Shown in pieces: positions 23,525 through 47,471 of a stretch of DNA of 64,000 nt. Below the pieces are notes generated by a model, which saw only the letters and a list, made by a program, of their open reading frames with translations, searched no databases and was not told the DNA's origin. The stretch's first letter is position 1. Every line of letters begins with the position of its first letter. This DNA comes from Duganella zoogloeoides (GTDB lineage: Bacteria > Pseudomonadota > Gammaproteobacteria > Burkholderiales > Burkholderiaceae_D). A program made the translations under genes and the position numbers. The stretch is taken from positions 5,332,001 through 5,396,000 of the forward strand of contig NZ_CP140152.1 of assembly GCF_034479515.1 (NCBI RefSeq), given 5' to 3'.

Positions 23525-23848
23525 GCCAAGAGCGCCTGAGAAACCTTCAGAGCGAGGCGCAGCGACGAAGACAGTACGACTGTACGGCAAGGCGCTGCAA
23601 CGAAGCTATGGAGGCTTTATCAGGCGCTCGACAAGCCAAGAGCGCCTGAGAAACCTCCAGAGCGAGGCGCAGCGACGAAGACAGTACGACTGTACGGCAA
23701 GGCGCTGCAACGAAGCTATGGAGGCTTTATCAGGCGCTCGACAAGCCAAGAGCGCCTGAGAAACCTTCAGAGCGAGGCGCAGCGACGAAGACAGTACGAC
23801 TGTACGGCAAGGCGCTGCAACGAAGCTATGGAGGCTTTATCAGGCGCT
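23525..23848. repeat. Three tandem copies of a 110-bp structured palindromic element
   Basis: Copies begin at 23525, 23635 and 23745 with an exact 110-base period and very few differences. Each copy has outer arms AGCGCCTGA and TCAGGCGCT, second arms around ACCTCCAGAGC and GCTATGGAGG, then GCAGCG pairing with CGCTGC, and an apical stem GTAC-GACT-GTAC. The array fills the whole gap between phaM and the next convergent gene. The last arm overlaps that gene's stop codon by two bases. Related copies are at 33.86 kb and 47.2 kb. Confidence 0.9.
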
Positions 23849-24062
23849 ACGCCAGGCGCAGTATGCGGATGGCGTCGATCAGCCCATCTGCCTGGCGCGT
23901 GACTTTCTGGACATCGATCAAACCTTCTTCTTCGAGCAGCTTGGCGTTGTCGAGTGCGCCCTGGAAGCTCTCGATGGTGTCACCCTTGGCGGCGACCGGT
24001 TTTACCCAGGCTACGCTGCCGACCTTCATTTTTGTATAGACTTCTTTTGCGATATCGCGCAT
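23847..24062 (-). CDS. Small conserved-looking protein, unknown function
   Basis: A 71-residue protein, MRDIAKEVYTKMKVGSVAWV at its start, with charged helices and no signal peptide. The frame stays open upstream to 24443, but ATG 24062 has GAGAGAGGA upstream, and the residues before it are antisense of the response-regulator gene. The segment KMKVGSVAWVKPVAAKGDT could be a small SH3-like fold (weak inference). Its stop codon lies within the outer arm of the last 110-bp repeat. It follows the kinase/response-regulator pair on the same strand and may be transcribed with it. Confidence 0.7.
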   Translation of the reverse strand: MRDIAKEVYTKMKVGSVAWVKPVAAKGDTIESFQGALDNAKLLEEEGLIDVQKVTRQADGLIDAIRILRLA

Positions 24063-24130
24063 AAATTTACATCCTCTCTCTTGGTGGTGCGTACTTGATT
24101 GCCGCACCTGTTTTAATTCATCTAAACGGT

Positions 24131-25831
24131 TTAGCGGTCCGGGACCGCGCCGTTGGCCGCCTCGTATTCGCTGGCGGCGGCTGCCGCCACCACGCCTGAC
24201 ACCGGCGCCAGCAGCGCCAGTTGTTCCATCAGCTGGGCAAAGCGCGGCTGGCCGGGGGCGATGGCATCGACATGCATCAGCACCTCGATCGCCTCGTCGG
24301 CCAGCTCGCGCACGTAACCGGTTTGCTGCAGGCGCGAGACCAGGATCTGCGCCGAATTGAACAGGATGCGCATATTGTGCGGCAGCGCGTGGCGCGCCAC
24401 GCGCATCCAGTCTATGGCCTCTTGCAGCCGCTCGGACTTCCACAGCAGCACGCCCTTGTTCATCATGTCAGCCGCTTCCTTGCGCGAGGAGCGGATCAGC
24501 TCCGTGCCCTCGTCGCCCATGCGCGCCTTGTCGAAAATCTTCTGCAACTCGTCCATCAACGGCACGTTATCATGGTTGTTGCGCGCAATGTAGCACAGCA
24601 GTCCCACCGGCGCCTCCTTCACGCCCACCGCGAACAGCAGGGTCGCCATGTCCAGGCACGTGGCGGTGTCGGGCCGGTGGCGGCTTTCATCGGCCAGCAT
24701 GCTTTCCAGCTCGTCGCCCGATTTGCGCGCGCGCCGGAAGTCGCCCGTCTCGTGGTACACCAGGCCCTCGGTGATCTTGGCGCGCAAGGTGACCTGATCG
24801 CCGCCGAACTGGTGGACCGCCGCGTTGAGCAGGCGGATTGCTTCCTTGGTGTCGTTCTTGCGGCCGCACACGCGCGCCATGCCGAAGTACGCATCGACCG
24901 TTTTGGCCACCGAGTACTCGCCGATGTCGATACACTTGCGGAACGCCCGCTCCGCCACCGGGATGTTCTCGAGCTTGAGCGCGGTCTGGCCTAGCGTGCG
25001 CTGGCGCGGCACCGAATTGGGCGACAGCTTGGCCGCCTTTTGCAGCACGTCGAACGCTTCCTCGTGCTTGCCCTGCAGCTGGAACGCCTGCGCCAGCTGA
25101 TCGAACGCGTCGATATAGAAGCGGTTGTCGGCGATCACCGCCTGGAACATCTTCTGCGCCTCTTCCACGTCGCCGTCGTGCATCATGATCTTGGCCAGGC
25201 CGCAGCGCGCCCAGTTGTAGTCGCGCTCTTCGAGCACCTGTTCGTACACCTTGCGCGCGCCCAGCGGGTCGCCGGCCTTGAGCTGCAAGGTGGCCTTCAT
25301 GCGCAGCAGGTCGATCGCGTGCAGCGGGTTGACGGGAATCTGCTCCTCGCACAGGCGGGCTGCGCGCAGGTAGTCCTTGTCGGCGTAGGCCTGGTCGATC
25401 TCGCTGAAGATCTGCTTCTTGATCCACACCCGGTTGAGGCGCGTGAGCAGCACGCCCTCGGTGATCGGCTTGATGATGTAGGCGTCGGGCTGATGCTCGG
25501 CCGCGCCCATCACCGACTCCACGCTTTTTTCGGCGGAGACCATCAGCCACACGCTGCTGGGCAGGATCAGGTTGCGGATGCGCGCTTCTTCGAGCACTTG
25601 CTGACCGTTCTTGCCGTCGCCCAGGTTGTAATCGCACAGCACCACGTCGTAGCGGGTTTTGGCCAGCAACATCATGCCCTCGCCGCCGCTGGCCGCCTGG
25701 TCGATATGCTTGGCGCCCAGGTTGCGCAGCGACTCGCGCAGCAGCTGGCGGATGCCCACGAAATCGTCGACGATCAGGTAGCGCTTCGCGCCCCAGTCGA
25801 TCTCGCCGTCGCTCTGTACCATGGCCGTCAT
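24131..25831 (-). CDS. Response regulator with TPR output domain
   Basis: A 566-residue protein. The receiver domain is at about 15-135: acidic pocket VDD, phospho-acceptor Asp in LCDYNLGDG, and the conserved Lys in IIKPI. An all-helical region of about ten TPR-like repeats follows (for example QAYADKDYLRAARLCEEQIP and GDPLGARKVYEQVLEERDY). There is no DNA-binding or enzymatic output domain, so output is probably by protein-protein contact. It overlaps the kinase gene by four bases (ATGA), which marks a cognate pair. The target partners are unknown. Confidence 0.88.
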   Translation of the reverse strand: MTAMVQSDGEIDWGAKRYLIVDDFVGIRQLLRESLRNLGAKHIDQAASGGEGMMLLAKTRYDVVLCDYNLGDGKNGQQVLEEARIRNLILPSSVWLMVSAEKSVESVMGAAEHQPDAYIIKPITEGVLLTRLNRVWIKKQIFSEIDQAYADKDYLRAARLCEEQIPVNPLHAIDLLRMKATLQLKAGDPLGARKVYEQVLEERDYNWARCGLAKIMMHDGDVEEAQKMFQAVIADNRFYIDAFDQLAQAFQLQGKHEEAFDVLQKAAKLSPNSVPRQRTLGQTALKLENIPVAERAFRKCIDIGEYSVAKTVDAYFGMARVCGRKNDTKEAIRLLNAAVHQFGGDQVTLRAKITEGLVYHETGDFRRARKSGDELESMLADESRHRPDTATCLDMATLLFAVGVKEAPVGLLCYIARNNHDNVPLMDELQKIFDKARMGDEGTELIRSSRKEAADMMNKGVLLWKSERLQEAIDWMRVARHALPHNMRILFNSAQILVSRLQQTGYVRELADEAIEVLMHVDAIAPGQPRFAQLMEQLALLAPVSGVVAAAAASEYEAANGAVPDR

Positions 25832-26577
25832 GGCAGCCGCAGGACGAAGCAGCCGCCACCCAGGTCACCGCCATTTTCCAGGGCGATGGCGCCGGTGCGC
25901 TGGCGGTGGCGGTGCATGCGCGCCACCTCGCTGGAAAAGTACAGACCCAGGCCGCTGCTGTTGCTGGAGAACCGCACCTGCACGTCACGCACGTCCATGG
26001 CTTGCGCGCCGGCTGCCAGCATCGCCGGCGGGAAACCGTCACCATTGTCTTCCACCCGCAGTTCCAGGTAGTCGCCGTCCGCCCGCACCGACAGCCGGAT
26101 GCGGTCGCGCGTATAGCGGATGGCGTTGTTGATGGCATGGACCAGCACCCCGATCACCAGTTCTTCGTCGAAGGTCCAGATGGCGTCCGGCGCAAAGTCG
26201 GTGTCGAAGGCGATGCCGCGCGATTGCAGCAGGATGCGCGCCTGCCCTTCCACCTGCTCGACCAGTTCGCGCACGCTGCGCGGGCTGGGATCGAACGGGT
26301 AGCCGGGCTTGCCCACTTCCTTGTACAAGGCAAGCAACTGGATCAGGCTGTCGTTCAGGCGGCGCGTCTGGTACAGCATCTGGCCCAGTTGCTGGTACTG
26401 CACCGGCTCGGCGGCGGCAGGGACAGGTGCCGCTGCGGTCGCAGGGACGTTGGTCAGCAGGTGTTCGAGCGTGCCACTCAGGACGCTGATCGAATTTTTC
26501 ATGTCGTGCACGGTCGACGCCAGGAACATCAGCAGTTCCGGCGAGCCTTGATAGTGCTGGGACAAGTCGTCATCCAT
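25828..26577 (-). CDS. Soluble sensor histidine kinase
   Basis: A 249-residue kinase without membrane helices. The phospho-acceptor box is VHDMKNSISVLSG near residue 25, a variant of the HisKA H-box with HDMKN in place of HELRN. The HATPase_c domain follows with N-box HAINNAIRY, G1 box DNGDGFPP and G2 box GLGLYF. No sensor domain is present, so it must receive input from a partner or a cytoplasmic cue. It overlaps the TPR response-regulator gene and should phosphorylate it (inference). Confidence 0.85.
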   Translation of the reverse strand: MDDDLSQHYQGSPELLMFLASTVHDMKNSISVLSGTLEHLLTNVPATAAAPVPAAAEPVQYQQLGQMLYQTRRLNDSLIQLLALYKEVGKPGYPFDPSPRSVRELVEQVEGQARILLQSRGIAFDTDFAPDAIWTFDEELVIGVLVHAINNAIRYTRDRIRLSVRADGDYLELRVEDNGDGFPPAMLAAGAQAMDVRDVQVRFSSNSSGLGLYFSSEVARMHRHRQRTGAIALENGGDLGGGCFVLRLP

Positions 26578-26654
26578 CGCGTCGCTCTCCGTGGATTCAA
26601 ACCGGGATTATATATTACCGCCTGTGGCCGAATGTGCGGCATTCGCCATACACT

Positions 26655-27014
26655 ATGCCCATGAACCGAAAATCCACTTTGCGCCAGGGCTGGCGTTCAC
26701 TCTGGGAGTTGCGTCCGCACCACGACACCTCCGCCGCCATGCGCCTGCTGGTCGCGTCGCTGCTGGCCGTGGCACTGGCCCTGGGCCTGATGTCGTTCGT
26801 GGCGATTTTCGGCCGGGTGTCGCGGGCCGGCTGGTGGTGGGCCTCGCTGCTGCCCAATATCGGCATCTGCCTGTGTATCGTGCACAGCATGTTCGGCGTG
26901 CTGCGCGTGGCCGAACGCGTACTGCCGGCGTCCCTGGTGGCACGCATGGCCGATGTGCGCGACATCCGCGCGGGCATGGCGCTGAGCAGCCTGGCCCTGG
27001 CATACAGCGACTGA
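26655..27014 (+). CDS. Short membrane protein, possibly truncated
   Basis: About 119 residues with two hydrophobic helices: one at about 35-58 (LLVASLLAVALALGLMSFV) and one at about 68-90. The basic N-terminus and the sequence LPNIGICLCIVHSMFGVLR resemble the membrane region of LytS-like sensor kinases, but no kinase part follows. Starts at 26655 or 26661 are possible; neither has a clear ribosome-binding site. It ends just before a heptamer minisatellite, so it may be the remnant of a longer gene broken near the repeat. A genuine small membrane protein is equally possible. Confidence 0.5.
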   Translation: MPMNRKSTLRQGWRSLWELRPHHDTSAAMRLLVASLLAVALALGLMSFVAIFGRVSRAGWWWASLLPNIGICLCIVHSMFGVLRVAERVLPASLVARMADVRDIRAGMALSSLALAYSD

Positions 27015-27150
27015 CAACTGACAACTGGCTGTTGGCTACTGGTTGCTGGACAATGGCTGATGGCTGATGGCTGATGGCTGATGGCTAATGGCTGATGGCT
27101 GATGGCTGATGGCTGATGGTTGCTGGTTGTTGGCTGCCGGTTATTAGCTA
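27011..27150. repeat. Heptanucleotide minisatellite (TGGCTGA)n
   Basis: Nine consecutive 7-base units run from 27054 to 27116: eight TGGCTGA and one TGGCTAA. Degenerate units flank them on both sides (CTGACAA twice near 27011, and TGGTTGC, TGGTTGT and TGGCTGC downstream). It fills the gap between the short membrane protein and the convergent mnmC gene and stops at the mnmC stop codon. Such arrays arise and vary by slipped-strand replication. Confidence 0.9.
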
Positions 27151-28932
27151 CTGGCTGCGGCGCCGCTGCTTGAGCAGGAAGCGGCCGGGGTCGAGCGCCT
27201 CCACCAGCGCTGCCTCGACCGGTGCCGGCGCGCCTTCCAGTTGCGACACCAGCAGTTCGGCCATCAGCGGCGCCCAGATCAGGCCGCGCGACGCATAGCC
27301 GAGCAGGCCGTACAGACCCGGGTGGCGTGGCACGTCACGCAAGTGCTCCAGGCGACCGGCCGATTCGACATCCGGCAGCGCGCCGGCCAGCGGCAGGCGG
27401 TCCGGCGCGGCGCTGCGAAAGCCCACCCGGCCGGCCAGCGGCGCGGTATCGATCAGGGCCGCCACGTGCGCACCGGGCACGATCTCCGCCAGCCGCGCCA
27501 GGTTTTCCCGCTGGCTGCTTGCGCGCAGTACACGGTCGTCGTCATTGTCGTAGGTGGCGCCAGCGCAAACGATGCCGTCGGCAGCCGGCGTCACGTACGC
27601 TTCGCGGCATACCACGAGCGGCAGTTGCGGAGCACTGGTCCCCACAGCCAGGTGGGTCACCTGGCCGCGCAGCGACTGCAACGGCAACTGGGCCGCCTGG
27701 GCAATCTGCACGGCGCCAGCGCCGTTGGCCAGGATTACCGTGGGCGCTTGCGCCAGCAAGGTAGCGCCGGCTCCCTCCACCAGCCATTCGCCGTCACCGG
27801 TGCGGCGCAAAGTGATCGCCTCGCTGCAAAACACGCGCTGCAGGCGGTCACCGCAGGCGTCCAGCATGGCCGCGCACAACGATGACGGGCGCGCCCAGCC
27901 GCCTTGCGCGAACAGCCAGCCACCGTGCGGCGTGGCGCCGCCCAGCAGCGCGCCCGCTTCCGTTGCGTCGGCCCAGCGCGCGAACGCCGGCGGATAGTTC
28001 CAATGGTCGAGCACCGCGCGCTGGACGGCGGCGTGGCCTGCATCGCGGGCCAGTTGCAGCACGCCGCAATCGGCGCCGATGAAGGCCGTGCCCACGCCAC
28101 CCAGCCGGCGCCACTCGCGCAGCGCAAACAGGTAGGCGGCACGCGCCAGGCGGGTGGGAATGTTGTCGTCTTTCGACAGCAGCGGCATGAAGATGCCCGC
28201 CAGGTTGCCGGACGCCTCCTGCGCCGGCTGCGCGTGGCGCTCGATCAACGTCACCTCCCAACCGCTGGCGCACAGGCGGCGACAGGCGCTGGCCCCCGCC
28301 AGGCCGGCGCCGATGACCACCGCGCGTTTATCGCGCAACGGTGGCGCGGCCAGGGCAGCGGATAATCCTGCGCCAGCGACAGGAGGTGTGGCGGTAGCGG
28401 CGATCGGTGCTGCACGATCAGCAGGCGGTGCGGCGGGAGCGGCAGTCGGTGCTGCACGAGCGACAGATGACACGCGGCGGCCCCGGTACTCGGCAACGAT
28501 ATCGTCGCCGCCATCTACCCGGCAGCAGGCGAAACCGGCAGCAGCCAGGGCCCACACCAGCAAGTCATCGGGCGCGCGCGCGTCAAGCGTGGCGCCGGGA
28601 GATGCCAGCCGCGCCAGCGTGCGCGCCTGCCCGGGCGCCAGCGCGCCGATATGAAAGGTATCGACACGGGCCAGCACCTGCGGCAGCACGGCAGTCATTT
28701 CGCCCGCCAGCAGATCGAGCGTGACGCGGCCGTCGTCGAGGATGATGCGGTGAAAACCCGGCACGTCGAGCGGCCACAGGGCGCGCAGCTGCGGATCGGC
28801 GATGGTCGCCGCATCGGCCACGCGCGCGGTCAGCGCAAGGTAATGGAGCTGCCGGTCATGCCGCGCGCGCGCCTGCGCAAAGCGCGCACCGTCGCCAAAT
28901 TCGGTGTCGAGAACGACATGCGACACGGTCAT
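27148..28932 (-). CDS. mnmC: MnmC-type tRNA oxidoreductase with decayed methyltransferase domain
   Basis: MnmC normally has an N-terminal methyltransferase and a C-terminal FAD oxidoreductase that together finish the mnm5s2U modification at tRNA position 34. The FAD domain here looks intact: VIGAGLAGASACRRL from about residue 207, with EASGNLAGIFMP and the C-terminal GFRSAAPDRLPLAG. The N-terminal domain is short and altered. The SAM loop that normally reads like ELGFGTGLNF appears as DTEFGDGARF (9-18). The catalytic DGFAP motif is replaced by IGALAP (95-100), although RLxFDDGRVTL-like and PGATL-like segments still align. A 35-residue Ala/Pro linker joins the parts. At 594 residues it is shorter than the usual 650-690. 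The start overlaps tag by four bases. Confidence 0.85.
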   Translation of the reverse strand: MTVSHVVLDTEFGDGARFAQARARHDRQLHYLALTARVADAATIADPQLRALWPLDVPGFHRIILDDGRVTLDLLAGEMTAVLPQVLARVDTFHIGALAPGQARTLARLASPGATLDARAPDDLLVWALAAAGFACCRVDGGDDIVAEYRGRRVSSVARAAPTAAPAAPPADRAAPIAATATPPVAGAGLSAALAAPPLRDKRAVVIGAGLAGASACRRLCASGWEVTLIERHAQPAQEASGNLAGIFMPLLSKDDNIPTRLARAAYLFALREWRRLGGVGTAFIGADCGVLQLARDAGHAAVQRAVLDHWNYPPAFARWADATEAGALLGGATPHGGWLFAQGGWARPSSLCAAMLDACGDRLQRVFCSEAITLRRTGDGEWLVEGAGATLLAQAPTVILANGAGAVQIAQAAQLPLQSLRGQVTHLAVGTSAPQLPLVVCREAYVTPAADGIVCAGATYDNDDDRVLRASSQRENLARLAEIVPGAHVAALIDTAPLAGRVGFRSAAPDRLPLAGALPDVESAGRLEHLRDVPRHPGLYGLLGYASRGLIWAPLMAELLVSQLEGAPAPVEAALVEALDPGRFLLKQRRRSQ

Positions 28933-29483
28933 CGGTGGCGGCAGAAACAGTCGGCATCATGGTCGTCCACCATGCCGATGCCCTGCATGTATGCATAAAC
29001 GATGGTCGAACCGACAAACTTGAAGCCCAGCTTGGCCAGGTCCTTCGACAGCCGGTCCGACAGCGCGGTCTTGATGATGCGTTCACCGGTGTTGTTGACG
29101 ATGGGCTGGCCATCGACGTAAGACCACAGCAATTGATCGAGGCTGCCGCCACTGGCGCGCAGGCGCAGGTAGGCCTGGGCGTTGGAAATGGCCGCTGCTA
29201 CTTTGAGGCGGTTGCGCACGATGCCGGGGTTGGCCAGCAGTTCGGCCACCTTGTCCGGGCCGTAGGTGGCGATCTTTTCGGCGTCCCAGCCATCGAAAGC
29301 GGCGCGGTAGGTTGCGCGCTTGTTGAGCACCGTTTCCCACGACAGGCCGGCCTGGGCGCCTTCGAGATTGAGCATCTCGAACAGGCGCAGTTCGTCGTGG
29401 CACGGCACGCCCCACTCGGTATCATGGTATTCCAGGTACAGCGGGTTGGTGGGCTTGGCCCAGGCGCAGCGGATGATGGTCAT
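28929..29483 (-). CDS. tag: DNA-3-methyladenine glycosylase I
   Basis: A 184-residue base-excision repair enzyme that removes 3-methyladenine from alkylated DNA. The N-terminus CAWAKPTNPLYLEYHDTEWG and the segment FEMLNLEGAQAGLSW (with the catalytic-pocket Glu) are diagnostic. The zinc-snap ligands can be placed: Cys6 and His20 near the start, and a His and a Cys in the tail DDHDADCFCRHR. The length is normal. ATG 29483 fits the family start; the frame is open far upstream only because it lies antisense to nothing constrained. The stop overlaps the mnmC start (ATGA), so the two are co-translated. Confidence 0.95.
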   Translation of the reverse strand: MTIIRCAWAKPTNPLYLEYHDTEWGVPCHDELRLFEMLNLEGAQAGLSWETVLNKRATYRAAFDGWDAEKIATYGPDKVAELLANPGIVRNRLKVAAAISNAQAYLRLRASGGSLDQLLWSYVDGQPIVNNTGERIIKTALSDRLSKDLAKLGFKFVGSTIVYAYMQGIGMVDDHDADCFCRHR

Positions 29484-29542
29484 GATGGATTTTTGTCGGG
29501 AAGCGAACCCGCAGTATACAACTCTGCAACCCCGCAACCGCG

Positions 29543-32449
29543 CTACAGCTCCAGGTCGATCGACAACCCGGTGCGGCGCCGTTCGCCATCGAGTTCCAGC
29601 GGTCCCGCCAGGTTGCTCACCACGCGCACTTCGCCGTCTTCCAGCGCTTGCGGCAGCGCGTGCATCAGGCGCGGGAAGAGGTCCACCGCATCGCCCTCCC
29701 CGGTAGCGTGCAGCGCGGCCCAGGCATTGCGGCCGGAGCGCTTGGCGATATACAGCCCCTGGTCGGCCAGTTCCACCACCTGCGGCCACGACAGCAGGCG
29801 CGGTTGCTCCGGCAGGAACGGAAAACAGGCAAAGCCGATCGAGCAGGTCTTGTGCAGTTTTTCGCCGTCGGGCAGCACGAAGTCGCGTTCGGCCACGGCG
29901 CGGCGCATGCGCTCGGCCAGGGCGCCGGCGTCGTCGCGGTGGGTGGCGCGCGCCAGCACCAGGAATTCCTCGCCGCCCCAGCGGATCACGTAATCCGATT
30001 CGCGGAATACTTCGCGTAGGCGGGCCTGCATCTGCACCAGGATCGAGTCGCCGGCGGCATGGCCGTAACGGTCGTTGACGTGCTTGAAGTGGTCCAGATC
30101 GACCATGTAGAACACCAGGTCGTTGGGCGCCTGGCGGTCGCAGTCGTTGGCGGGCCGGGGCTGGCCGCGCTGCTGCGCACGCTCCTGCATATTGTCGTAG
30201 CCGCGCAAGCTCATGGCGACGTCGGCATCGACGTTGCGCAGGAAGAAGCGGCGGTTGCGCAGGCCGGTCAGCTGGTCGGTCAGGCTCACTTCTTCGAGCG
30301 CCTGGTAGGCGCGCTCGAGTTCCAGGTTCTTGTCGAGCAGCTGCTGCTGGGTGGCAGCCACCTGGCGGTAGGCGCTGGCGTTGTCGAGGGCGATGGCGCC
30401 GTACGCGCACAGGGTGCGGAAGATCAGCCGTTCGCGTTCGCCATAGGCGTCGGCGCGCATCGACTGCACCGTCATCACGCCCAGCACGCGCTCGCCCACG
30501 GCCAGCGGCGCGAACAGCATGCTCAGCGTGGGCAGGGTGCCGGAGATGTGGTTGACATTGGCCTCGCCCTCTTGCAGCGCGACCAGCAGTTCGCGGCGCT
30601 CGCGCACGCAGCGCGCGGAATTGGCGTCGGGGTCGTCCAGCGCCACCCGCAGCGGCGGCAGCGGCCGGCCCGCTTCCACGCCAAAGGCGCTGGCCAGCCA
30701 CTCGCCCCCCGGCTCGATCAGGAAAATGGAGAACAGGGTGGCGTCGAGCAGACCGTGGACGTGGCGGTCCAGCGCGCGGAACACGGCCGCCGATTCCAGG
30801 TGGGCGGTAATCTCCTGCCCCACCGCGCCCAGGTTCGCCAGCGTGGCGCTGGTGCGCTGCAGGATTTCGGCGCGGCGCGCCTCGGCCGCCGCCAGCTGGC
30901 GGTGGTGCTCGCCCTCGGTCTGGGCGCGCTCGGTCTGGTATTGCACCTGCATGGCGATGGCGCGGTTGGTCGCTTCGCGGCTATGGGTAAGATCGCGCGC
31001 GGCGCCGGCCCGCAGCGCGATGGCGTAGGCGCGCTCGAAGTCGCCCACCGCCGCGTATTCGCGCGCGGTGGCGTCGAGCAGCGCGCCGGGCACGGTGTAG
31101 CCGTCGATGGTGGCGGCGATGTCCAGCGCCAGCAACAGGTAATGCAGCGGCGCGCTGGGAGCGCTCATGCCGGGCGGCGGCGCCAGCGCCGGATCGTCCG
31201 CGCTGCCCGGGCGGGCATGGATGTTGGCCAGCACCTGCAGGGCGGCAATCTGCGCCAGCGTGTCGCCCTTGGTGCGGGCCAGCGCCAGCGCGCCCTGCGC
31301 CACGGTCAAGGCCTCGCCGGCCCGGCCCAGATGCGCCAGCGCGTGCGCCTGGCCGCGCCGCGCGCTGCTCTGGAAATCGCCCTGGCCCAGCGCGTCGCCG
31401 CGCGCGGCCAGCCGGGTGAAGCTGTCGAGCGCCGCCGCGTGGTTGCCCAGGTCGAGCGCCAGGTCGCCCTCGTATTCGAGCGCCACCGCGTAGGCGCGCG
31501 AACCGGCCAGTGGCGCGAGCACCACCAGCGATTCGCGCAGCAGGGTTTGCGCGGCCTCGCGCTGGCCCAGCTGGCGCAGGGTTTCGGCGGTCTGCATCAG
31601 GCACATGCCGATCGACAGCGGCCAGCCGGTGGGGCGCGCCAGGTCCTGGGCGCGCTGCATCCAGTCCAGCGCCGCCTCGTTGGCGTTCAGGCAGGTAAAA
31701 CCGTTACCGATATTGGTGGCGATGATGATGGCGCGGCGCAGCTGGCCGCTGGTCAGCGCCGTGTCGAAACTGCGCATCAGGTGGCCGATGGCGCGGCCGT
31801 ATTCGCTGTGCTGGAAGGCGCGGGTGCCGAGAAAATCGCTGATCCAGCCGGCAGCGATGGCCGGCATGGCATCGAGGTCGGTGTCCAGGGTGGCTGCCGG
31901 GGGGCGCCACGACGCCTGCACGCCCACGCCGGCGCCGTCGGTGAAGGCGGCGCAGATGCCGGCAGCGGCGCCGATGATATCGCCGCGCACCGGATCGGAT
32001 GCGGCGCGGGCAGCTTCAGCCGCCTGCGCCAGCCAGCCGCTGGCGGCGATGCTGTCGCCGCGGTCGTTGGCGATCCAGGCCTGCACCCAGCAGGCGTCGG
32101 CGCGGCCGCGCGCGGCGGCAACCTGCAGCGGCGCGGGCGCTGCGGCGTCGTGGGCGAGCAGTTGCAGCGCCTGGTCGGCATGGTACTGGGCGGTATCGAG
32201 CTCGCCGCGCACCCACGCGCCCTCGGCCGCCACCAGCAGCAGCCGCGCGCGCAGCACCGGCGCGTCCTGCGGCGCCACGGCCGGCAGCATCGCCTGGGCC
32301 TCGCCGGACAGCTCGCGGGCGCGCACGGGATCGCGCTGGCGCAGGTGCCAGGCCAGCGCCGCCAGGTGCGGCAGGCGCGCCAAGCCGGTCAAGTCAGGCA
32401 AGGTGTTTTCCCATTGCGCCAGGTCTGCGTCGCGCACGAACATGTCCAC
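29543..32449 (-). CDS. TPR-GAF-GGDEF diguanylate cyclase
   Basis: A soluble protein of 968 residues. Residues about 1-480 are helical and TPR-like, resembling the sensor part of some LuxR/MalT-type proteins. A coiled segment follows at about 490-540, a GAF domain at about 545-700, a short coil, and a GGDEF domain at about 740-905 with active-site loop RWGGEEFLVL. A 60-residue tail follows (SNLAGPLELDGERR). The synthase motif is intact, and no EAL domain is present. The start is GTG 32449, nine bases after GGAGG; an ATG two codons later is spaced too far from it. It is the second diguanylate cyclase in the window and is unrelated in sensor part to the first. Confidence 0.88.
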   Translation of the reverse strand: MDMFVRDADLAQWENTLPDLTGLARLPHLAALAWHLRQRDPVRARELSGEAQAMLPAVAPQDAPVLRARLLLVAAEGAWVRGELDTAQYHADQALQLLAHDAAAPAPLQVAAARGRADACWVQAWIANDRGDSIAASGWLAQAAEAARAASDPVRGDIIGAAAGICAAFTDGAGVGVQASWRPPAATLDTDLDAMPAIAAGWISDFLGTRAFQHSEYGRAIGHLMRSFDTALTSGQLRRAIIIATNIGNGFTCLNANEAALDWMQRAQDLARPTGWPLSIGMCLMQTAETLRQLGQREAAQTLLRESLVVLAPLAGSRAYAVALEYEGDLALDLGNHAAALDSFTRLAARGDALGQGDFQSSARRGQAHALAHLGRAGEALTVAQGALALARTKGDTLAQIAALQVLANIHARPGSADDPALAPPPGMSAPSAPLHYLLLALDIAATIDGYTVPGALLDATAREYAAVGDFERAYAIALRAGAARDLTHSREATNRAIAMQVQYQTERAQTEGEHHRQLAAAEARRAEILQRTSATLANLGAVGQEITAHLESAAVFRALDRHVHGLLDATLFSIFLIEPGGEWLASAFGVEAGRPLPPLRVALDDPDANSARCVRERRELLVALQEGEANVNHISGTLPTLSMLFAPLAVGERVLGVMTVQSMRADAYGERERLIFRTLCAYGAIALDNASAYRQVAATQQQLLDKNLELERAYQALEEVSLTDQLTGLRNRRFFLRNVDADVAMSLRGYDNMQERAQQRGQPRPANDCDRQAPNDLVFYMVDLDHFKHVNDRYGHAAGDSILVQMQARLREVFRESDYVIRWGGEEFLVLARATHRDDAGALAERMRRAVAERDFVLPDGEKLHKTCSIGFACFPFLPEQPRLLSWPQVVELADQGLYIAKRSGRNAWAALHATGEGDAVDLFPRLMHALPQALEDGEVRVVSNLAGPLELDGERRRTGLSIDLEL

Positions 32450-32599
32450 TCGGTGATTCCTCCTGCTATAGGTGGCGGTCGATGCCGGCCAGTTGCTGCA
32501 TTATTCCACAGTTTCCAGACAACACAGTTTCCTATTTGCAATTATTTTTTTTCTTCGGTTCAAACCCGGTACACGGTGGCGCAATCACAGCGAGACGGC

Positions 32600-32629
32600 A
32601 AAAAAAACGCCGGCCATTGCTGGCCGGCG
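32600..32629 (-). terminator. Intrinsic terminator of the HxlR gene
   Basis: An 8-bp perfect stem CGCCGGCC/GGCCGGCG (32608-32615 with 32622-32629) is followed on the minus strand by eight T. It lies 24 bases after the HxlR stop codon. Confidence 0.9.
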
Positions 32630-32652
32630 CGTGGTCGCAGCGAGGGAACGGG

Positions 32653-33860: not shown

Positions 33861-33967
33861 GGAGCGCCCGAGAAAGCCTCCACAGCAAGGCGCAGTGCCG
33901 AAGGCAGTACGACAGTACGGCGAGGCGCTGCAACGCCGCTCTGGCGGCTTGATCAACTGCCAGGCGC
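33861..33967. repeat. Single copy of the structured palindromic element
   Basis: This copy aligns over its length with the 110-bp units at 23.5 kb. It has AGCGCC...GGCGC outer arms, AAGCCTCCACAGC pairing with GCTCTGGCGGCTT (11 of 13), GCAGTGCC pairing with GGCGCTGC (one G-T wobble), and the apical stem GTAC-GACA-GTAC. It sits between two convergent genes, 22 bases after one stop codon and 3 bases before the other. Confidence 0.85.
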
Positions 33968-38118: not shown

Positions 38119-38121
38119 CGT

Positions 38122-38649: not shown

Positions 38650-38879
38650 ATAACCTCCTTCAGAAATGAATGACAAAAGTTGAGGTCCGGAGCCTTAAAA
38701 ATTGCCCAATCCCAACACATGATTCAATTATTGATGATCTAAAAAAACTCTGCTTCTGCTGGAGGAGACGAAGGTTTTGCGTGCGTAGAAATCCGCCAAA
38801 AAAATTTCCAAACATGGGCATAATGGCGACAGGTGCGCAACACTTCGTATCAAAAGATGACCAACCTTCAAGGTGAGCC

Positions 38880-39704: not shown

Positions 39705-39706
39705 CA

Positions 39707-40285: not shown

Positions 40286-40310
40286 AAGTATCCTTGGGAG
40301 GCGAAAGCGG

Positions 40311-41540
40311 TCAGTCGCGGCAATCGGGTGGCAGCACGGCGGCGGGAAGGTCTTCCCCGCTGCAACGCCAGAGCACGCGCCTATTCTCGTCCACGCGGGG
40401 CGTGAACGCAAGCGCGCCGCCGCGGTACCGCATATCGGACGGGTACACCCGGACCACGCCGTTGCCGGCATCGACTTCCAAGGCTTGCACCACGTGGCCA
40501 GGGTCGATCAGCGCGTAGCCGGCCTGCTCCAGGGTGGCCGGGCTTTGGCCGTTGGCATAGTAATAGCGCTCCACCGCCGCCGCTGCCTCGCGGCCCACGG
40601 CAACCGCTTGCGTCATGCGGGTGCGCGCTTCCAGGTTCTGCCAGGCGGGCCAGGCAACGGTGGCCAGCACGGCCGCCAGCGTCAGCAGGGTCAGCAGCGC
40701 ACCGGGTGCGCCCAGCCCCAGGCTCACGCGCGGCACGCACAGTGCCAGCACATACGCGAGCCCGTGCCGTGGCGCCCCAGGTTCGACCGGCGCGCCCTGC
40801 GCCAGATCGCGCACCACCGCCATGCGCTTGACCAGCCACGGACGGTCGCTGATCAGTTCGTGGAACGACATCCAGAAGCCGCCCGCCTGGCGCGCCTGGG
40901 CCGCGTAGCCGGTGCGGTCCAGGTGGCGCCAGCGCTTGCCGCCGGCCGCCAGCGCCGCCAGCCCGGCCTGGGCGCTGGCCAGCTCGGCGCAGGCGTGGAA
41001 GCCATGGCGGTCGCACGAGTATTCACGGGCGCGGGCATACGCCGCGCCCAGCAGCGGCAGCAGCGCGGCCGGCGCCAGCAGCAGCGCCCGGTGCAGGTGG
41101 CGCCGATCGAGGCCGCCGATGGCGTGGCCGATGTGGAAATTGATGGCGTCCGGGCGATCGTCGAGCGCATCGACCAGGTCGCTGTCGAGGACGATGTTGT
41201 TATTGCCGGGAAAACGCCTGGCCAGCGCATGAAAACCGCCACCCGCTTGCAGCAGGTAGGCTTCGGGCACGGACGTGCGCTCAAGTCGTGCGCAGCACGC
41301 AAGCACCCGTTGGTGCAGGTCGGGAAACTGTTGCGCCGTGATGCGTACGCCGGTGCCGGTCAGCCAGGCCACCAGCGCCGATTGCGCGACGTAGCAGGCC
41401 AAATACCAGGCCAGGTAAAACGCCGCCGCGTACAGCAGCGCCTGGCCCAAGGTGCCGATCAGCAGCGCGCCCCACGCCAGCATGGACACCGCCAGCATCA
41501 CGCCGAACAGCAGTTTTTCGTTCTTGTACACCAAGTTCAT
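40311..41540 (-). CDS. M48 peptidase-like protein lacking the zinc motif, pilin-like tail
   Basis: A 409-residue membrane protein. Two helices lie at about 10-60. A domain with clear M48/HtpX resemblance follows (GGGFHALARRFPGNNNIVLD, DAINFHIG, REYSCDRHG). The zinc-binding HExxH is replaced by HAIGG at residues 139-143 (bases 41112-41126): the catalytic Glu and second His are missing, while the third ligand Glu173 remains. It should be proteolytically inactive. A third helix at about 300 (LLTLLTLAAVLATVAWPAW) is followed by a periplasmic PilA-like C-terminal segment (VAVGREAAAAVERYYYANGQ). GGGAA precedes ATG 41540. Its role is unknown. Confidence 0.8.
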   Translation of the reverse strand: MNLVYKNEKLLFGVMLAVSMLAWGALLIGTLGQALLYAAAFYLAWYLACYVAQSALVAWLTGTGVRITAQQFPDLHQRVLACCARLERTSVPEAYLLQAGGGFHALARRFPGNNNIVLDSDLVDALDDRPDAINFHIGHAIGGLDRRHLHRALLLAPAALLPLLGAAYARAREYSCDRHGFHACAELASAQAGLAALAAGGKRWRHLDRTGYAAQARQAGGFWMSFHELISDRPWLVKRMAVVRDLAQGAPVEPGAPRHGLAYVLALCVPRVSLGLGAPGALLTLLTLAAVLATVAWPAWQNLEARTRMTQAVAVGREAAAAVERYYYANGQSPATLEQAGYALIDPGHVVQALEVDAGNGVVRVYPSDMRYRGGALAFTPRVDENRRVLWRCSGEDLPAAVLPPDCRD

Positions 41541-41623
41541 GCGGTTCCCGGACCAAAAGTTTCCGGGAGGCATTTTATAGATATTTTGAGAAAAAGTTAA
41601 CGCTTTATGACAACAATCTCATC

Positions 41624-43645
41624 TCAAGGCAAGGCGGTTTGCAGGTCGCCGAGATTAACCGGTTTGACCAGGTGGGCGTTGAAGCCGGCCGCGCTGCTGC
41701 GCGCCTTGTCGTCGGCCCTGCCATAGCCCGACAGCGCGATCAGGGTCACTTGCGCGCCATGCGGCATGGCGCGCAGGCGGCCGGCCAGTTCGAAACCGTC
41801 CATGCCGGGCAAGCCGATGTCGAGAATCGCCACCTGCGGCATCGATACGCTGGCGGCGGCGATGGCCTGGGCCGGATCGTAGGCGACACTGGCCTCGTAT
41901 CCGAGCGCGCCCAGCAGTTCGGCCAGCGAATCGGCTGCATCCTGGTTGTCGTCCACCACCAGCACGCGCACGCTGCCGCTCGCTGCCGGCCCGGGGTTGG
42001 CCGGCGCTGGGGCCGCGATCGGCACCAATACGGGCGCGGGAACAGCCTCGGCCATCACCGAGTCGGGCAGGTTGATGGTAAACGTGCTGCCCCGCCCCTC
42101 GCCGCCGCTGTAGGCCTGGATGGTGCCGCCGTGCATGCGCACCAGGTTGTGCGCCAGCGCCAGCCCGATGCCGAGGCCGCCCTTGGCGCGGTCGAGCTTG
42201 CGGCTGCCCTGGACGAACAGATCAAAAATGTGCGGCATCAGGCTGGCCGGGATGCCGTTGCCGTCGTCGGTGACCAGGATTTGCAGGTCGGCCCCGCGCA
42301 CCCGCGTGGCCAGCGTGATGTGGCCGGCATGCGGCGTGTAGCGCGCGGCGTTGTTGAGCAGGTTGGCGACCACTTGCGCCAGCCGCGCCGGATCGCCGTG
42401 CCAGCGCACGGTGGGCACGTCCACCAGCAGGCGGTGCTGCTTTTGTTCGATCAGCGGCGCGGCCATCTCGATGGCGCGGTTGAGGATGTCTGCCAGCGGC
42501 GTGGTCTCCTTGCGCAGCTCGACCTTGCCCCGCGCCAGGCGCGAGACGTCGAGTAAATCGTCGACCAGCCGTACCAGGTGATCGACCTGGCGCTGGATCA
42601 CTTCCTGCTCGTGGCCGGTATCGGCGCCATCGTGCGCGCCCGCGCCGCGCAGCTTCATCAGCTTGAGCGCGGTGACGATGGGCGCCAGCGGATTGCGCAG
42701 CTCGTGGCCCAGCATGGCCAGGAATTCATCCTTGATGCGCGCCGTGGAATCGAGGTCGCCGTGCAGGCGCTCGCTCTCGGCCATGGCCAGCGCCAGTGCA
42801 CGGTCGGCCTCGAGGCGGCTCAGCGTGGCGCACACGCTGGCGGTGAATTGCGCGAGGAACTGGCGGCAGGCGGCGTCCACCGGCAAATGCGGCGAGACGT
42901 GGAAGGCCAGCGCCAGCTCGGCGCACAATTGCAATTCGGCGCCCTGGATCACGACCAGGCCGGCATCGGGGGCCGAGACGGCAGTGCCGGACGCTTCGCC
43001 ACGCAGCAGTTCCACGCTGCGCAAGTCGCGCGGATGGTCGGCCGCGCAACGGTCGATGGCGGCAGCCACGTCGGCCTCGCTGCGGCAGGCCAGCAAGGCC
43101 CGGCCCAGCAGGTCGAGCGCATGGCGGCGCCGTTCGGCCAGCACCTGCACGGTGGTCTCGGTGCACACCAGCAGCACCCCTGCCACGCAGTCGTGGTCGT
43201 CGAACACTGGCGTAAAACTGTAATTCCAGTAGACGTCTTGCAGGCGGCCGTGGCGCAGCATCGGCAGCAGCTGGTTGGCATACACCTGCGGCTCGCCGCT
43301 GCGCCGCACATGGGCGATCTGCGGGCCGACCGTGGACCAGGCCTCGGCCCAGCAGGCGGGTCCGCTTTGACCGAGCGCCTCGGGATGTTTGCCGGCGCCG
43401 AAGCATGGCGCGAAGGCGTCGTTGTAGATCTGCACCAGGTCGTCGCCCCAGTACAAGAACATCGGCTGGGCGGCGTGCAGCACGACACCGACGCAGGTGC
43501 GCAGCGAAGCCGGCCAGCCGTCGATGGCGCCCAGTGCCGTGGTGTGCCACGGAAAGGCACGCACCAGGTCGCGCATCGGCGTGCCGGCGCCGATGAAGCG
43601 GTGCGCGGGCGTTGCCGGCAGGGAGGAAACGGGTAAGGCCGCCAT
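41624..43645 (-). CDS. Hybrid histidine kinase (PAS-HisKA-HATPase-REC)
   Basis: A 673-residue soluble kinase. A PAS-like sensor region covers about 20-170 and includes FLYWGDDLVQIYNDAF, followed by a GAF-like or coiled segment. HisKA comes next with H-box LGHELRNPLAPIV (about 315), then HATPase_c with N-box NLLNNAARY, G1 DDGNGIP and G2 GLGIGLAL. A C-terminal receiver ends the protein, with phospho-Asp in VAILDIGLPGMDG and Lys in LVKPVN. All catalytic residues are present. There is no membrane segment, so the signal is cytoplasmic. No Hpt domain adjoins it, so the receiver may act as an internal regulator. Confidence 0.9.
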   Translation of the reverse strand: MAALPVSSLPATPAHRFIGAGTPMRDLVRAFPWHTTALGAIDGWPASLRTCVGVVLHAAQPMFLYWGDDLVQIYNDAFAPCFGAGKHPEALGQSGPACWAEAWSTVGPQIAHVRRSGEPQVYANQLLPMLRHGRLQDVYWNYSFTPVFDDHDCVAGVLLVCTETTVQVLAERRRHALDLLGRALLACRSEADVAAAIDRCAADHPRDLRSVELLRGEASGTAVSAPDAGLVVIQGAELQLCAELALAFHVSPHLPVDAACRQFLAQFTASVCATLSRLEADRALALAMAESERLHGDLDSTARIKDEFLAMLGHELRNPLAPIVTALKLMKLRGAGAHDGADTGHEQEVIQRQVDHLVRLVDDLLDVSRLARGKVELRKETTPLADILNRAIEMAAPLIEQKQHRLLVDVPTVRWHGDPARLAQVVANLLNNAARYTPHAGHITLATRVRGADLQILVTDDGNGIPASLMPHIFDLFVQGSRKLDRAKGGLGIGLALAHNLVRMHGGTIQAYSGGEGRGSTFTINLPDSVMAEAVPAPVLVPIAAPAPANPGPAASGSVRVLVVDDNQDAADSLAELLGALGYEASVAYDPAQAIAAASVSMPQVAILDIGLPGMDGFELAGRLRAMPHGAQVTLIALSGYGRADDKARSSAAGFNAHLVKPVNLGDLQTALP

Positions 43646-44161
43646 GATCTATTTGTCTGAGGAAAGCAGAAGTGTAGCAACTGGGCAGCGACGCGGCGCA
43701 CGATAGACGGCAAGTTATCGCTGGAGAATCGCCTGTTCGGCTGCATGATTTTATATTGTCTTTATGATATTTTTCCTGCGGTTGATCCGCCATGGCGATC
43801 CGAACGGCCCCGGTCTGCCGCACTGGCCGGCGGCGGCCGACCGTGACGGGTCGCTGTCGCTCACGCTGGCCGGCGCCATGGCCGTGCATGGCTCCCGCGC
43901 GGCCGTGTGCGACTTGCTGTTTGCGCGGCGCGATCATCGGCCGTCGAGCATCGTGCCGCCCGCACCGTAGCGGTTCGCTTGCCAAACTGTAGTTATAGCG
44001 CAACGACCCGGCGGGCCCGACGGCCCGGTCGTACCAAAAGAAGTATCAATAAAATCAACTGCGTGACTGTTTCCGGCAGCCCCGGTTTTTGGTCCGGATG
44101 CCTCGCATATGATCGATTCACCCGCAAGGGGGAGACGAATCAATACTATAAGAGGATACGC
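43646..44161. other. Intergenic region with promoter-like DNA and a leader hairpin
   Basis: 516 bases between the divergent hybrid kinase and TonB receptor genes. A T/A-rich patch lies at about 43745-43775. A strong hairpin at 44003-44032 pairs ACGACC and GGGCC with GGCCC and GGTCGT, with a 4-base bulge on the 5' arm. Short open frames exist (for example 43764-43970) but have no ribosome-binding site. No repeat of the 110/61-bp family is present. Confidence 0.5.
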
Positions 44162-47152
44162 ATGAAGAACCGGAACCATAGCAGTCCGCTCAAGCCGTCC
44201 GTGCTGGCAGTCATCGGCGTACTTGCCGCCATGAGCGCCCAGGCACAGGAAACCACCGCACCCGCCAGCGCCAGCGAAGCCAAGAGCGCCGAAGAACAGG
44301 TCGTTGTCGTGACCGGCTTCCGCGCCAGCCTGAACAGCGCGCTGAACACCAAGCGCGCCAGCGACGGCATCGTCGATGTGATCAAGGCCGAAGACATCGC
44401 CAAGTTCCCCGATGCCAATCTGGCCGAATCGCTGCAACGCGTGCCGGGCGTGTCGCTCACGCGCGGCGACGGCGGCGAAGGCAAGCAAATCACCGTGCGC
44501 GGCCTGAACGCGGGCTTTACCCGCGTGCGCATCAACGGCATCGAAGGCGTGACCGCCACCGGCGCGTCCGACATCAACGGCAGTACCAACCGCGGCCGTG
44601 GCTTCGACTTCTCGGTGTTCGCCTCGGAACTGTTCAACAGCCTGGAAGTGCGCAAGACATCGGAAGCGGCCGTGGAAGAAGGCTCGCTCGGCGCCACCGT
44701 CGATCTGCGCACGGGCCGGCCGTTCGACTTCAAGGGCCGCACCTTCAGCATCGGCGCCCAGGGCATGCACAACTCGGTGTCCAAGACCAACGACCCGCGC
44801 GTGACCGCGCTGTACTCGGACCGCTGGAAAACCTCGTACGGCCAGTTCGGCGCGCTGATCTCGGGCGCGTACTCCAAGCGCACCGCGCAGGAAGAAGGCT
44901 ACGAGGCGGTCGAACTGCTCAGCGCCAGCAACGACGGCGGCTTCTGCTCGCCACTAGGTGCGGCCGTGCAAAATCCGGCCAACAACGCGGTCAAGGGCGT
45001 CACCGCCACCAATTGCGGTTTCGGCGTGCCGCGCACGTCCAATACCGCCGCCTACAACGACGTGATGGGCCGCACCGACAATTACGGCGGCACGGTCGCC
45101 AACCCGCTGCCGGGCTCGGGCGCGTTCGCGCCGCGCATTCCGCGCTTCCGCCGCTCGCTCACCGAGTACGAGCGCACCGGCCTGACCGGCGCGCTGCAAT
45201 GGCGCCCGAGCAGCGCCACCGAGTTGAACCTCGACCTGATGGGCGGCAAGTTCAACAACAAGCGCTACGACAACTACATCTCGGCCATCTCGTTCGGGCG
45301 CAGCATGGCGCAATCGAACGGCAAGCCGCAGACATCGATCGTCGATGCGCACTTCAACGACAACGGCAGCTGGGACTACGGCAAGTTCAACGCGGTGGAC
45401 ATCCGCACCGAGGGCCTGCTCGACGTGTATTCGACCACCTTTAAACAATACGTGCTGTCGGGCCGCCACGACGTCACCGACCGCCTCAAGCTGGAATTCC
45501 TGAGCGGGCGTTCGCGCTCGGACCTGGACGAGCCGCAGCGCACCACGGTCCAGTTCGACTCGCCCAACGCCAACGGCTTCTCTTACGACTTCCGTAACAA
45601 TCGTAATGTGCCGACGATTAACTTCGGCGTCGACGTGACCAACCCCAACAATTTCAGCTTCGCGCCGCAGGAAGCGGACGGCACCTTCCACGGCCAGTTC
45701 GTGGGCCGCTACCTGCACACCCGCAACACGCTGAAAACCAACCAGGTGACCGCCGCATTCGAAGCGAACGACAACCTGACCCTGCGCACCGGCCTCTCGC
45801 GCCGCAATAACCAGTGGACCAACGTGGAAATCGGTTCGGGCGGTAACGGCCTGCGCCTGCCGGCCGGCGTCACCATGGACTCGATCTCGCGCCAGATCAG
45901 CGGCTTCGGCAAGGGGCTCGGCGGCTCCGGCGTCCCGAGCTCGTGGGCGGCGGTGGACTTGAACAAGTTCCTCGCGGTGTACAACATCGAGTGCCATTGC
46001 GCGGCCGTGCCCGGTTCCGAATATAACTACCTGAACCAGGCCAACCGGGGCGTCGAGGAAAAGATCGACGCCGCCTTCCTCATGGCGGACTTCAACTACG
46101 ACCTGTTCAACATCCCGCTGCGCGGCAACGTCGGTGTGCGCCACGCACGCACCGAGATGAACTCGTTCGCGCTGGTCAACGCCAACGGCACGCTGGAACC
46201 GGTGCGTGGCCGCAACCGCTACAACGACTACCTGCCAGCGCTGAACGTGTCGGCCACCTTGCACCGCGACGTGATGCTGCGCTTCTCGGCCGGCAAAACC
46301 CTGGCGCGTCCCGAGTACACCGACCTGGCGCCATCGAGCACGCTCAACGCACAGGTGCAGACTGTCAATATCGGCAACCCGAACCTGTCGCCGATCCGCG
46401 CCAAGACCTTCGACCTGCAAGCCGAGTGGTACTACGACAAGAACGCCATGGTGTCGGTGGGCGCCTTCCACAAGAAGATCGGCACCTTCATCCAGGGCGT
46501 GTCGGACCGCGCCGTGTTCTCGAGCCTGGGCCTGCCCGACTCGGTGCTGCTGGGCGGCGGTTGCAGCATCACTGGCGGCACGCCAGCTTGCGCAACGTTA
46601 CCTAGCACCACGGTGGTGGTGAACCGCCAGGTGAACACCCCGGGCGGTCCGCTGACCGGGTACGAGTTCAACCTGCAAGCACCGTTCAGCTTCCTGCCCG
46701 GCATCTGGAGCAACTTCGGCCTGCTGGCGAACTACACTTACGTCGATTCGAAGATCACCTACATCACGCGGGTGGACAATCCGAACACGCCGGCCAACGA
46801 GCAGCTGACCCAGCGCGCCAACTTCACCGGCTTGTCGCCGAAGGCGCACAACCTGACCTTGTTCTACGAGGACCCGAAGTTCAGCGCCCGGGTTTCGGCC
46901 GCGCACCGTTCGTCGTACCTGCTCAACGTGCTCGGCAACGTGCAGGGACACGACTTCACCATCGTCGATGGCTCGACCAACGTCGACTTCAGCATGTCGT
47001 ACAACCTCACGCCGCAACTGCGCCTGAGCTTTGAGGGCCAGAACCTCAACGACACGCCGCTGCGCTACGGCCGCGACAACCAGCGCAACGACACGCTGTT
47101 GTACGTGCATTCAGGCCGCACCTTCGTGGTGGGGATGAATTACAAGTACTAA
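44162..47152 (+). CDS. Large TonB-dependent receptor, Caulobacter/Xanthomonas type
   Basis: A 996-residue outer-membrane receptor. The signal peptide ends near SAQAQE, and a TonB box-like VVVVTGFR is at about 42-49. The plug contains AESLQRVPGVSLTRGDGGEG and ITVRGLNAGFTRVRINGIE, and the barrel runs to the terminal VVGMNYKY. The opening FRASLNSALNTKR is typical of the TIGR01782 class, whose members often take up oligosaccharides or plant-derived compounds (family knowledge). The substrate here is not evident because no catabolic genes adjoin it. AAGAGGA precedes ATG 44162. It is followed by a strong terminator. Confidence 0.93.
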   Translation: MKNRNHSSPLKPSVLAVIGVLAAMSAQAQETTAPASASEAKSAEEQVVVVTGFRASLNSALNTKRASDGIVDVIKAEDIAKFPDANLAESLQRVPGVSLTRGDGGEGKQITVRGLNAGFTRVRINGIEGVTATGASDINGSTNRGRGFDFSVFASELFNSLEVRKTSEAAVEEGSLGATVDLRTGRPFDFKGRTFSIGAQGMHNSVSKTNDPRVTALYSDRWKTSYGQFGALISGAYSKRTAQEEGYEAVELLSASNDGGFCSPLGAAVQNPANNAVKGVTATNCGFGVPRTSNTAAYNDVMGRTDNYGGTVANPLPGSGAFAPRIPRFRRSLTEYERTGLTGALQWRPSSATELNLDLMGGKFNNKRYDNYISAISFGRSMAQSNGKPQTSIVDAHFNDNGSWDYGKFNAVDIRTEGLLDVYSTTFKQYVLSGRHDVTDRLKLEFLSGRSRSDLDEPQRTTVQFDSPNANGFSYDFRNNRNVPTINFGVDVTNPNNFSFAPQEADGTFHGQFVGRYLHTRNTLKTNQVTAAFEANDNLTLRTGLSRRNNQWTNVEIGSGGNGLRLPAGVTMDSISRQISGFGKGLGGSGVPSSWAAVDLNKFLAVYNIECHCAAVPGSEYNYLNQANRGVEEKIDAAFLMADFNYDLFNIPLRGNVGVRHARTEMNSFALVNANGTLEPVRGRNRYNDYLPALNVSATLHRDVMLRFSAGKTLARPEYTDLAPSSTLNAQVQTVNIGNPNLSPIRAKTFDLQAEWYYDKNAMVSVGAFHKKIGTFIQGVSDRAVFSSLGLPDSVLLGGGCSITGGTPACATLPSTTVVVNRQVNTPGGPLTGYEFNLQAPFSFLPGIWSNFGLLANYTYVDSKITYITRVDNPNTPANEQLTQRANFTGLSPKAHNLTLFYEDPKFSARVSAAHRSSYLLNVLGNVQGHDFTIVDGSTNVDFSMSYNLTPQLRLSFEGQNLNDTPLRYGRDNQRNDTLLYVHSGRTFVVGMNYKY

Positions 47153-47172
47153 GTTAGCTTGCACCAATGAAG

Positions 47173-47204
47173 AGGGGCGCCACTGCGGCGCCCCTTTTTT
47201 TATT
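47173..47204 (+). terminator. Intrinsic terminator of the TonB receptor gene
   Basis: A stem of AGGGGCGCC with GGCGCCCCT around a short loop is followed by seven T, 20 bases after the receptor stop codon. Confidence 0.92.
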
Positions 47205-47471
47205 AAAAAACGGTCAGAGCGAGGCGCCAGCGCCGCAGACAGTGCATGAGCACGGCAAGGCGCTGCAACGACGCTCAGAGCGAGGCGCCAGCGCCGCAGA
47301 CAGTGCATGAGCACAGCAAGGCGCTGCAACGACGCTCAGAGCGAGGCGCCAGCGCCGCAGACAGTGCATGAGCACAGCAAGGCGCTGCAACGACGCTCAG
47401 AGCGAGGCGCCAGCGCCGCAGACAGTGCATGAGCACGGCAAGGCGCTGCAACGACGCTCTGGCCGTTTTTA
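47205..47471. repeat. Four tandem 61-bp units inside a long inverted repeat with T-tracts
   Basis: Units begin at 47215, 47276, 47337 and 47398 with an exact 61-base period and one or two differences. Each unit shares CAGAGCGAGGCGC and GGCAAGGCGCTGCAACGA with the 110-bp family. Within each, CAGCGCC pairs with GGCGCTG and the apical stem is GTGC-ATGA-GCAC. The array is bounded by AAAAACGGTCAGAGC on the left and GCTCTGGCCGTTTTT on the right, which are inverted copies with one G-T wobble. The right T-tract overlaps the stop codon of the convergent catalase-family gene. It should work as a terminator from both sides. Confidence 0.9.

Follow-up and report, generated by a model that had tools for sequence, protein, structure and literature searches.

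Background

Among the described systems closest to the repeats reported here, REPs are given a GTAG head in the available part of PMC2817692, an orientation-dependent effect on mRNA is reported for ERIC in the accessible part of PMC2229807, and for elements of the IS427 group the excerpted text of PMC3281130 gives a duplication of 2 bp for most and of 4 bp for one. The open-licence PMC literature held no description of the present hairpin family among the matches listed. The family is described here from Duganella zoogloeoides (genome G000), starting from three sites in one window, i.e. the whole stretch of 64,000 nucleotides that was analysed. As a whole, it is best explained as a non-autonomous miniature transposon (MITE) and not as a REP (probability roughly 0.8); the units are about 101 bp long, multicopy, and without a transposase gene of their own. 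Mobility is highly probable for the class-A units and probable for the family, and a putative function retained at gene 3' ends, as judged from sequence, is a tentative addition with somewhat under even odds.

Repeats in the window

The three sites comprise class-A units at 23 kb and 33 kb and a class-B array at 47 kb (Table 1), in agreement with an earlier note on this DNA, which had listed three 110-bp units at 23525-23848, one at 33861-33967, and four 61-bp cores at 47205-47471; the cores themselves span about 47210-47471. The covariance model R1, which was built partly from the window copies themselves, gave six matches in the window (E 1e-14 to 4e-27), followed by six weak matches outside the elements (E 0.005 to 3.5; best, E 0.005). 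Neighbouring class-A units of the 23-kb tandem are separated by a 10-nt spacer. In the relative G041, the 23-kb locus carries two units with different outer arms, and so does the 33-kb site.

Table 1. Family members and adjoining hairpin in the window
Feature	Positions	Strand	Description	Score
Class-A unit 1 of 3	23530..23629	+	arms GAGCGCCTGA/TCAGGCGCTC, apex GTAC/GTAC	102.4 bits
Class-A unit 2 of 3	23640..23739	+		103.8 bits (covariance model R1)
Class-A unit 3 of 3	23750..23849	+		102.4 bits (R1)
Class-A single unit	33862..33962	+	right outer arm degraded	93.4 bits
Ordinary hairpin with T-run	47174..47201	+	terminator-like, outside the family; left of the 47-kb array	
Class-B array	47205..47471	+	four 61-bp cores, GTGC/GCAC apex, one outer stem AAAAACGG..CCGTTTTT	

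The location between convergent genes was confirmed for all three sites with our own simple gene finder, which called 23523(+)/23847(-), 33839(+)/33970(-) and 47152(+)/47469(-). The elements had also been said to reach to within a few bases of the stop codons, which holds in general: the end of the third 23-kb unit overlaps the stop of the leftward gene (23847-23849, CTA, i.e. TAG), as does the right end of the 47-kb array (TTA, 47469-47471). It does not hold for the left end of this array, which lies about 52 nt past the left stop; the gap holds the ordinary hairpin with T-run (47174-47201). An intrinsic-terminator scan, which allows loops of 3-8 only, found 13 sites with 12.1 expected, and this hairpin is not among them.

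From the outside inwards, a unit consists of outer arms of about 17 bp, inner arms, and a core of about 48 nt, in which two imperfect direct repeats (AGGCGC.GC.ACG) flank a small hairpin, GTRC-NNNN-GYAC. Tandem arrays are formed of whole units or of cores alone, and forms of about 65 bp (L116, L117, L118, L120) resemble deletions between the two direct repeats of the core. The conserved internal-loop letters CGAAG/CGAG (e.g. window 23555-23602), picked out of the alignment by eye, could give tandem G-A pairs, a feature of structured RNA. At Janthinobacterium loci including L200, the hairpin lies inside a longer conserved unit with the flanks cgggccaa..gtctccgg; L200 holds four copies at a spacing of about 217-228 bp. 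Two other repeats were seen in the window: a 54-bp tandem repeat with six copies in register (55308-55724), and a run of a TGGCTGA-like 7-bp repeat (26998-27151) upstream of a leftward gene ending at 27148.

Family size and spread

The further copies that the earlier note had called for are present: the D. zoogloeoides chromosome (one contig, 6,321,842 bases) contains no fewer than 54 units, which group into 43 sites. The count was made with R1 (built from alignment A1, 27 copies after exclusion of duplicates and broken ones) down to 27.9 bits, and opposite-strand duplicates were taken out by hand; weaker matches are omitted from the 43 sites, though the one at 5006 kb is a true deletion form. 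Within the genus, R1 matches 48 of 60 genomes (G000 included) between 1 and 59 times each at E 0.01, and 12 are without any match. In the order Burkholderiales, matches were obtained in 119 of 399 genomes and 61 of 159 genera (E 1e-6; the scoring took 10 candidates per genome). The 24 distant loci that were searched again, having been chosen for matching, all scored 60 bits or more, and the core pattern, with up to seven mismatches allowed, was also recognised in nine distinct distant cores from 10 of 25 loci. R1 gave no match at E 5 in 16 other plasmid, viral and transposon DNA sources, and a plasmid search with a class-B unit as query gave none.

Target duplications, ends and transposase

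In the relative G044, 36 copies of about 101 bp were detected in 37 fetched loci; 26 of these are bounded by an exact 3-bp direct repeat (15 TTA, 11 TAA), and ten from different sites have the same 101-nt sequence. Another young family, in G053, whose ends are different, has a 3-bp duplication in 13 of 14 copies (14 fetched out of 24 model matches), mostly as C-TWA-G. The elements have moved, and TAA/TTA is their target. The duplicated triplet is itself a called stop in 5 of 26 cases in G044 (background 30/1007) and in 6 of 13 in G053 (background 28/529), and the proximity to stop codons arises because of this insertion target; the earlier note had overlooked both the mobility and the TAA/TTA duplication that lies behind the proximity. 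The 10 of 36 G044 copies without exact duplication count against the MITE reading, and so do the three window sites, at which no clean target duplication is visible. At one distant copy (L376:1501-1602) an apparent 5-bp flanking repeat, CGTAG and not TWA, was seen by eye; other transposases may therefore be involved.

Three longer elements in G044, of 3.0, 2.4 and 5.2 kb (L129, L130 and L131, respectively), have the same 17-bp ends as the units (GAGCGCCTAACAAAACC) and all encode an IS5-family transposase (NF033580, 202-244 bits; cut-off, 110); a TAA or TTA duplication is present at L129 and L130, and none at the 5.2-kb L131. Inside their IS5-type ends these three elements carry unrelated passenger reading frames beside the transposase, like passenger-carrying transposons. 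Similar ends and a TTA duplication were also seen in two independent elements, one of 865 bp with an IS5-type transposase on a Cupriavidus taiwanensis plasmid (L402) and another of about 890 bp on a viral contig (L417), where the IS5-type transposase sequence is in two frames. The family core is absent from all of these transposase-bearing elements, i.e. the three in G044, that on the Cupriavidus plasmid and that on the viral contig. Ends common to units and an autonomous element were found for class A only, and in G044 only (17 bp, L129 and L130). From the common ends and the duplication length we infer that the units may be moved in trans by an IS5-family transposase.

In G000 there is no transposase at E 1e-60 and no match to NF033580, which counts against the MITE reading. 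For class B, no transposase with class-B ends was found in G053, neither G053 nor G058 had two such ends at a distance from each other, and six viral contigs had single ends only; the search for an autonomous class-B element returned nothing, and in four of five genomes the matches to NF033580 were all below cut-off. Since no autonomous partner was found, class B is termed MITE-like on the duplication alone. An automated end search around other transposase loci returned nothing (L149 is too short for its known right end).

Empty sites

The 23-kb element is absent in 15 of 16 compared relatives and present in G041; in each of the 15 orthologous junctions (L305-L319) the stops are 7 to 254 bp apart and R1 has no match at E 0.01. 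No core was found at the 47-kb junction of G018 and G015 (the left flank was not found in G041 and G008), and a G000 site at 5319 kb is empty in G041; the 33-kb site yielded no empty counterpart. Nine of 15 distinct G041 sites correspond to occupied G000 sites, and the other six may lie beyond the compared loci. An origin from ancestral terminators between convergent genes is ruled out at 23 kb by the empty sites and may apply at some class-B sites. A different palindrome, of GTAGGGCGGATTA type and REP-like by eye, was seen at the 47-kb junction of G018 and G015 (L361/L362).

Placement, orientation and pairing

The alternative that survives best, with a chance somewhat short of even, is that the copies are neutral MITE relics without function, in which case the TAA/TTA bias and purging from genes would explain all of the placement, and complementarity would be preserved by palindrome-templated mutation and copying. 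The target at stop codons, the many broken copies, the range of 0 to 59 copies per genome within the genus and the 12 of 60 genus genomes without a match all favour it. By our own gene finder, 28 of the 43 sites are convergent, 15 tandem and none divergent, and 41 have a called stop no more than 12 nt away, often overlapping it, sometimes through an in-frame stop carried by the arm; among background junctions (window plus 180 kb of G041; element-bearing ones included) 34 are convergent, 117 tandem and 32 divergent. The 28 of 43 exceed the 37% expected of random stops (68/185; p 2e-4), an excess beyond the stop-codon expectation that speaks against neutral relics. The G044 copies are 10 convergent, 18 tandem and 6 divergent, with two at locus edges (12, 17, 6 and 2 of 37 with a second detector). 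They differ from G000 in Fisher tests (p 0.003 for convergent, 0.006 for divergent), a contrast between two lineages with different families that fits selective loss plus retention.

The orientation bias is likewise at odds with neutral relics. The G000 core is antisense to the abutting gene in 28 of 32 cases (p 2e-5; tandem 14/15, convergent 14/17), with 11 convergent ties set aside. Antisense-to-sense counts with the other detector are 18 to 2 for G000, 11 to 1 for G041, 9 to 3 for G044, 3 to 4 for G053, 33 to 14 for the named genomes, 2 to 2 for G005 and 2 to 1 for the distant loci; minus G000 and G041 they are 49 to 24 (p 0.005), counts that are not independent because the named set contains G041 and G053 genomes. 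The young class-B family has no orientation bias. Together, convergent excess and antisense bias suggest retention at 3' ends.

Covariation was counted in alignment A2, which holds 43 of 122 non-redundant sequences (60 random draws less 17 discarded manually, most of them near neighbours or broken copies). Changes on both sides occur at 18 of 25 pairs, and the large excess of compensatory changes that had been asked for was obtained: 168 cells, where shuffles averaged 48 (0/500 as high) and slid partners gave at most 47. The apical swap between GTAC/GTAC and GTGC/GCAC pointed out in the earlier note is borne out in the 43 sequences (27 A-U, 16 G-C and 0 broken cells). Of the outcomes that the earlier note had named as speaking against it, i.e. 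no further copies, random placement and no compensation, none was seen, given the copies, placement and covariation described above. Its statement that a compensatory change implies selection on a hairpin is, as it stands, without support: a young transposon inserts a ready-made palindrome, and palindrome-templated mutation can also preserve the complementarity of the arms. The covariation, which weighs against neutral relics, is safer evidence for a shared palindrome than for selection, since relatedness is not accounted for in the shuffles and these same sequences supplied the structure.

Across seven orthologous G000/G041 pairs, the paired positions fall into 200 without change, 11 with compensation, 5 with a change on one side that leaves the pair intact, 19 in which pairing is broken and 19 with a gap; of the unpaired positions, 38 of 191 differ. 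Pairing is therefore partly, not strictly, retained (19 broken exceed 11 compensated); the 19 of 35 changed pairs that are not compensated count against the retained-hairpin explanation and are in line with neutral relics.

Single-strand RNA folding gave z = -5.5 for a 23-kb unit, z = -2.6 for the 33-kb stretch, and z = -1.8 and -2.6 for two 47-kb stretches. In most copies folding is stronger for the sense strand than for the one that is read from the abutting gene, and the lesser stability of the latter speaks against a simple RNA-hairpin role. G-U cells exceed A-C cells by 150 to 80, or 116 to 76 with one pair excluded. This RNA polarity (sense-strand folding, G-U excess) is at odds with the antisense-to-gene placement. 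The class-A arms are without a long T-run; A- and T-runs adjoin the arms at 47 kb and some others of class B.

Conservation of the core

Between the two young families, G044 and G053, 38 of 48 core positions are identical, against 9 of 17 in the left outer arm and 10 of 17 in the right. In 122 non-redundant stretches the core hardly varies at its unpaired positions, unlike the arms; the contrast is exaggerated by the selection of these stretches by core pattern. A centre more conserved than the ends is the opposite of what an ordinary MITE shows and counts against the MITE reading; order-wide conservation of unpaired core positions is also hard to square with neutral relics. With so unusually conserved a centre, the elements may be used by the cell as gene-end structures.

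The core might instead be the selected unit, i.e. a structured RNA or protein-binding motif of host origin that IS5-type ends have captured several times. This is possible though doubtful: the core-to-arm identities, the spread through the order and the strand-biased placement fit it, and it is weakened by the arms, which share an IS5-like pattern across families (gradual drift of one transposon family also fits), and by the core, which was not seen outside a palindrome here, though the sequences were selected by core. No Rfam family matches at gathering score (none in the window; weak matches at four places, the best with E 0.006 and 22.9 bits against a cut-off of 150), on which ground a known RNA family was rejected. 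A Burkholderiales-wide hairpin module with a conserved strand-specific core, riding on various IS5-type ends and retained at stops as a 3'-end device, is a similarly speculative proposal. The insertion of cores into pre-existing hairpins, entertained because class-B arms vary from site to site almost throughout G000, is disfavoured, as arms and core moved jointly in G044 and G053.

The earlier note had named REP/BIME for comparison. REP/BIME/REPIN-type elements moved by a Y1 (RAYT) transposase share intergenic palindromes, tandem arrays and Y1_Tnp genes (20/20 genomes searched) with the present case and are nevertheless very improbable, and were rejected, on the absence of a GTAG-type head (A1, A2), the 3-bp duplications and IS5 ends, and Y1_Tnp counts that do not follow copy number (mean 3.9 in 12 match-free genomes, 3.1 in 8 with matches); being present in 12/12 genomes without matches, the Y1 transposase does not track the elements.

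Proposed explanation

On the MITE reading, a unit of about 100 bp would consist of IS5-type terminal inverted repeats (the outer arms, about 17 bp) on either side of a structured, conserved core some 50 bp long. A transposase provided in trans would cut at the arms, insert the unit at TAA/TTA (often C-TWA-G) and duplicate the 3 bp. Insertion at a gene end would be nearly harmless, and stop codons a tolerated target, because the duplicated triplet can be a stop or the arm has an in-frame TGA or TAA. Copies away from gene ends would be lost by selection; those at 3' ends, above all between convergent genes, would be long-lived with their pairing kept, and probably serve as hairpins at transcript 3' ends.

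If this is true, a selfish element has occupied a near-harmless niche, the stop codon, and may give its host ready-made gene ends. Young (G044, G053) and old (G000, G041) families make insertion preference separable from later selection, and the conservation of centre over ends makes the upkeep of MITE interiors a testable question.

Comparison with known systems

The family resembles REP/BIME elements with RAYT in its intergenic palindromes and arrays, and differs in lacking both the GTAG head of the REPs listed in PMC2817692 and a link to a Y1 transposase. Like the Tn3-derived TIMEs, in the accessible text of PMC4133298, it has the same ends as an autonomous element and conserved stretches in the core; unlike the family, TIMEs have Tn3 ends of 38 bp, a 5-6 bp duplication and a length of 262 bp. 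Correia/NEMIS, ERIC and RUP, which are bacterial MITEs, share a size of about 100-130 bp, a hairpin, an intergenic location and the non-autonomous state; they have TA at the termini, whereas the present elements have a TWA duplication and a different sequence, and are found here in Burkholderiales. With IS5-family MITEs and IS5/IS427-type insertion sequences the family shares the transposase family (NF033580, PF13340 plus PF01609), inverted repeats of about 17 bp and a short duplication; it is set apart from IS5/IS427-type elements by the TAA/TTA triplet at stop codons and the conserved structured core.
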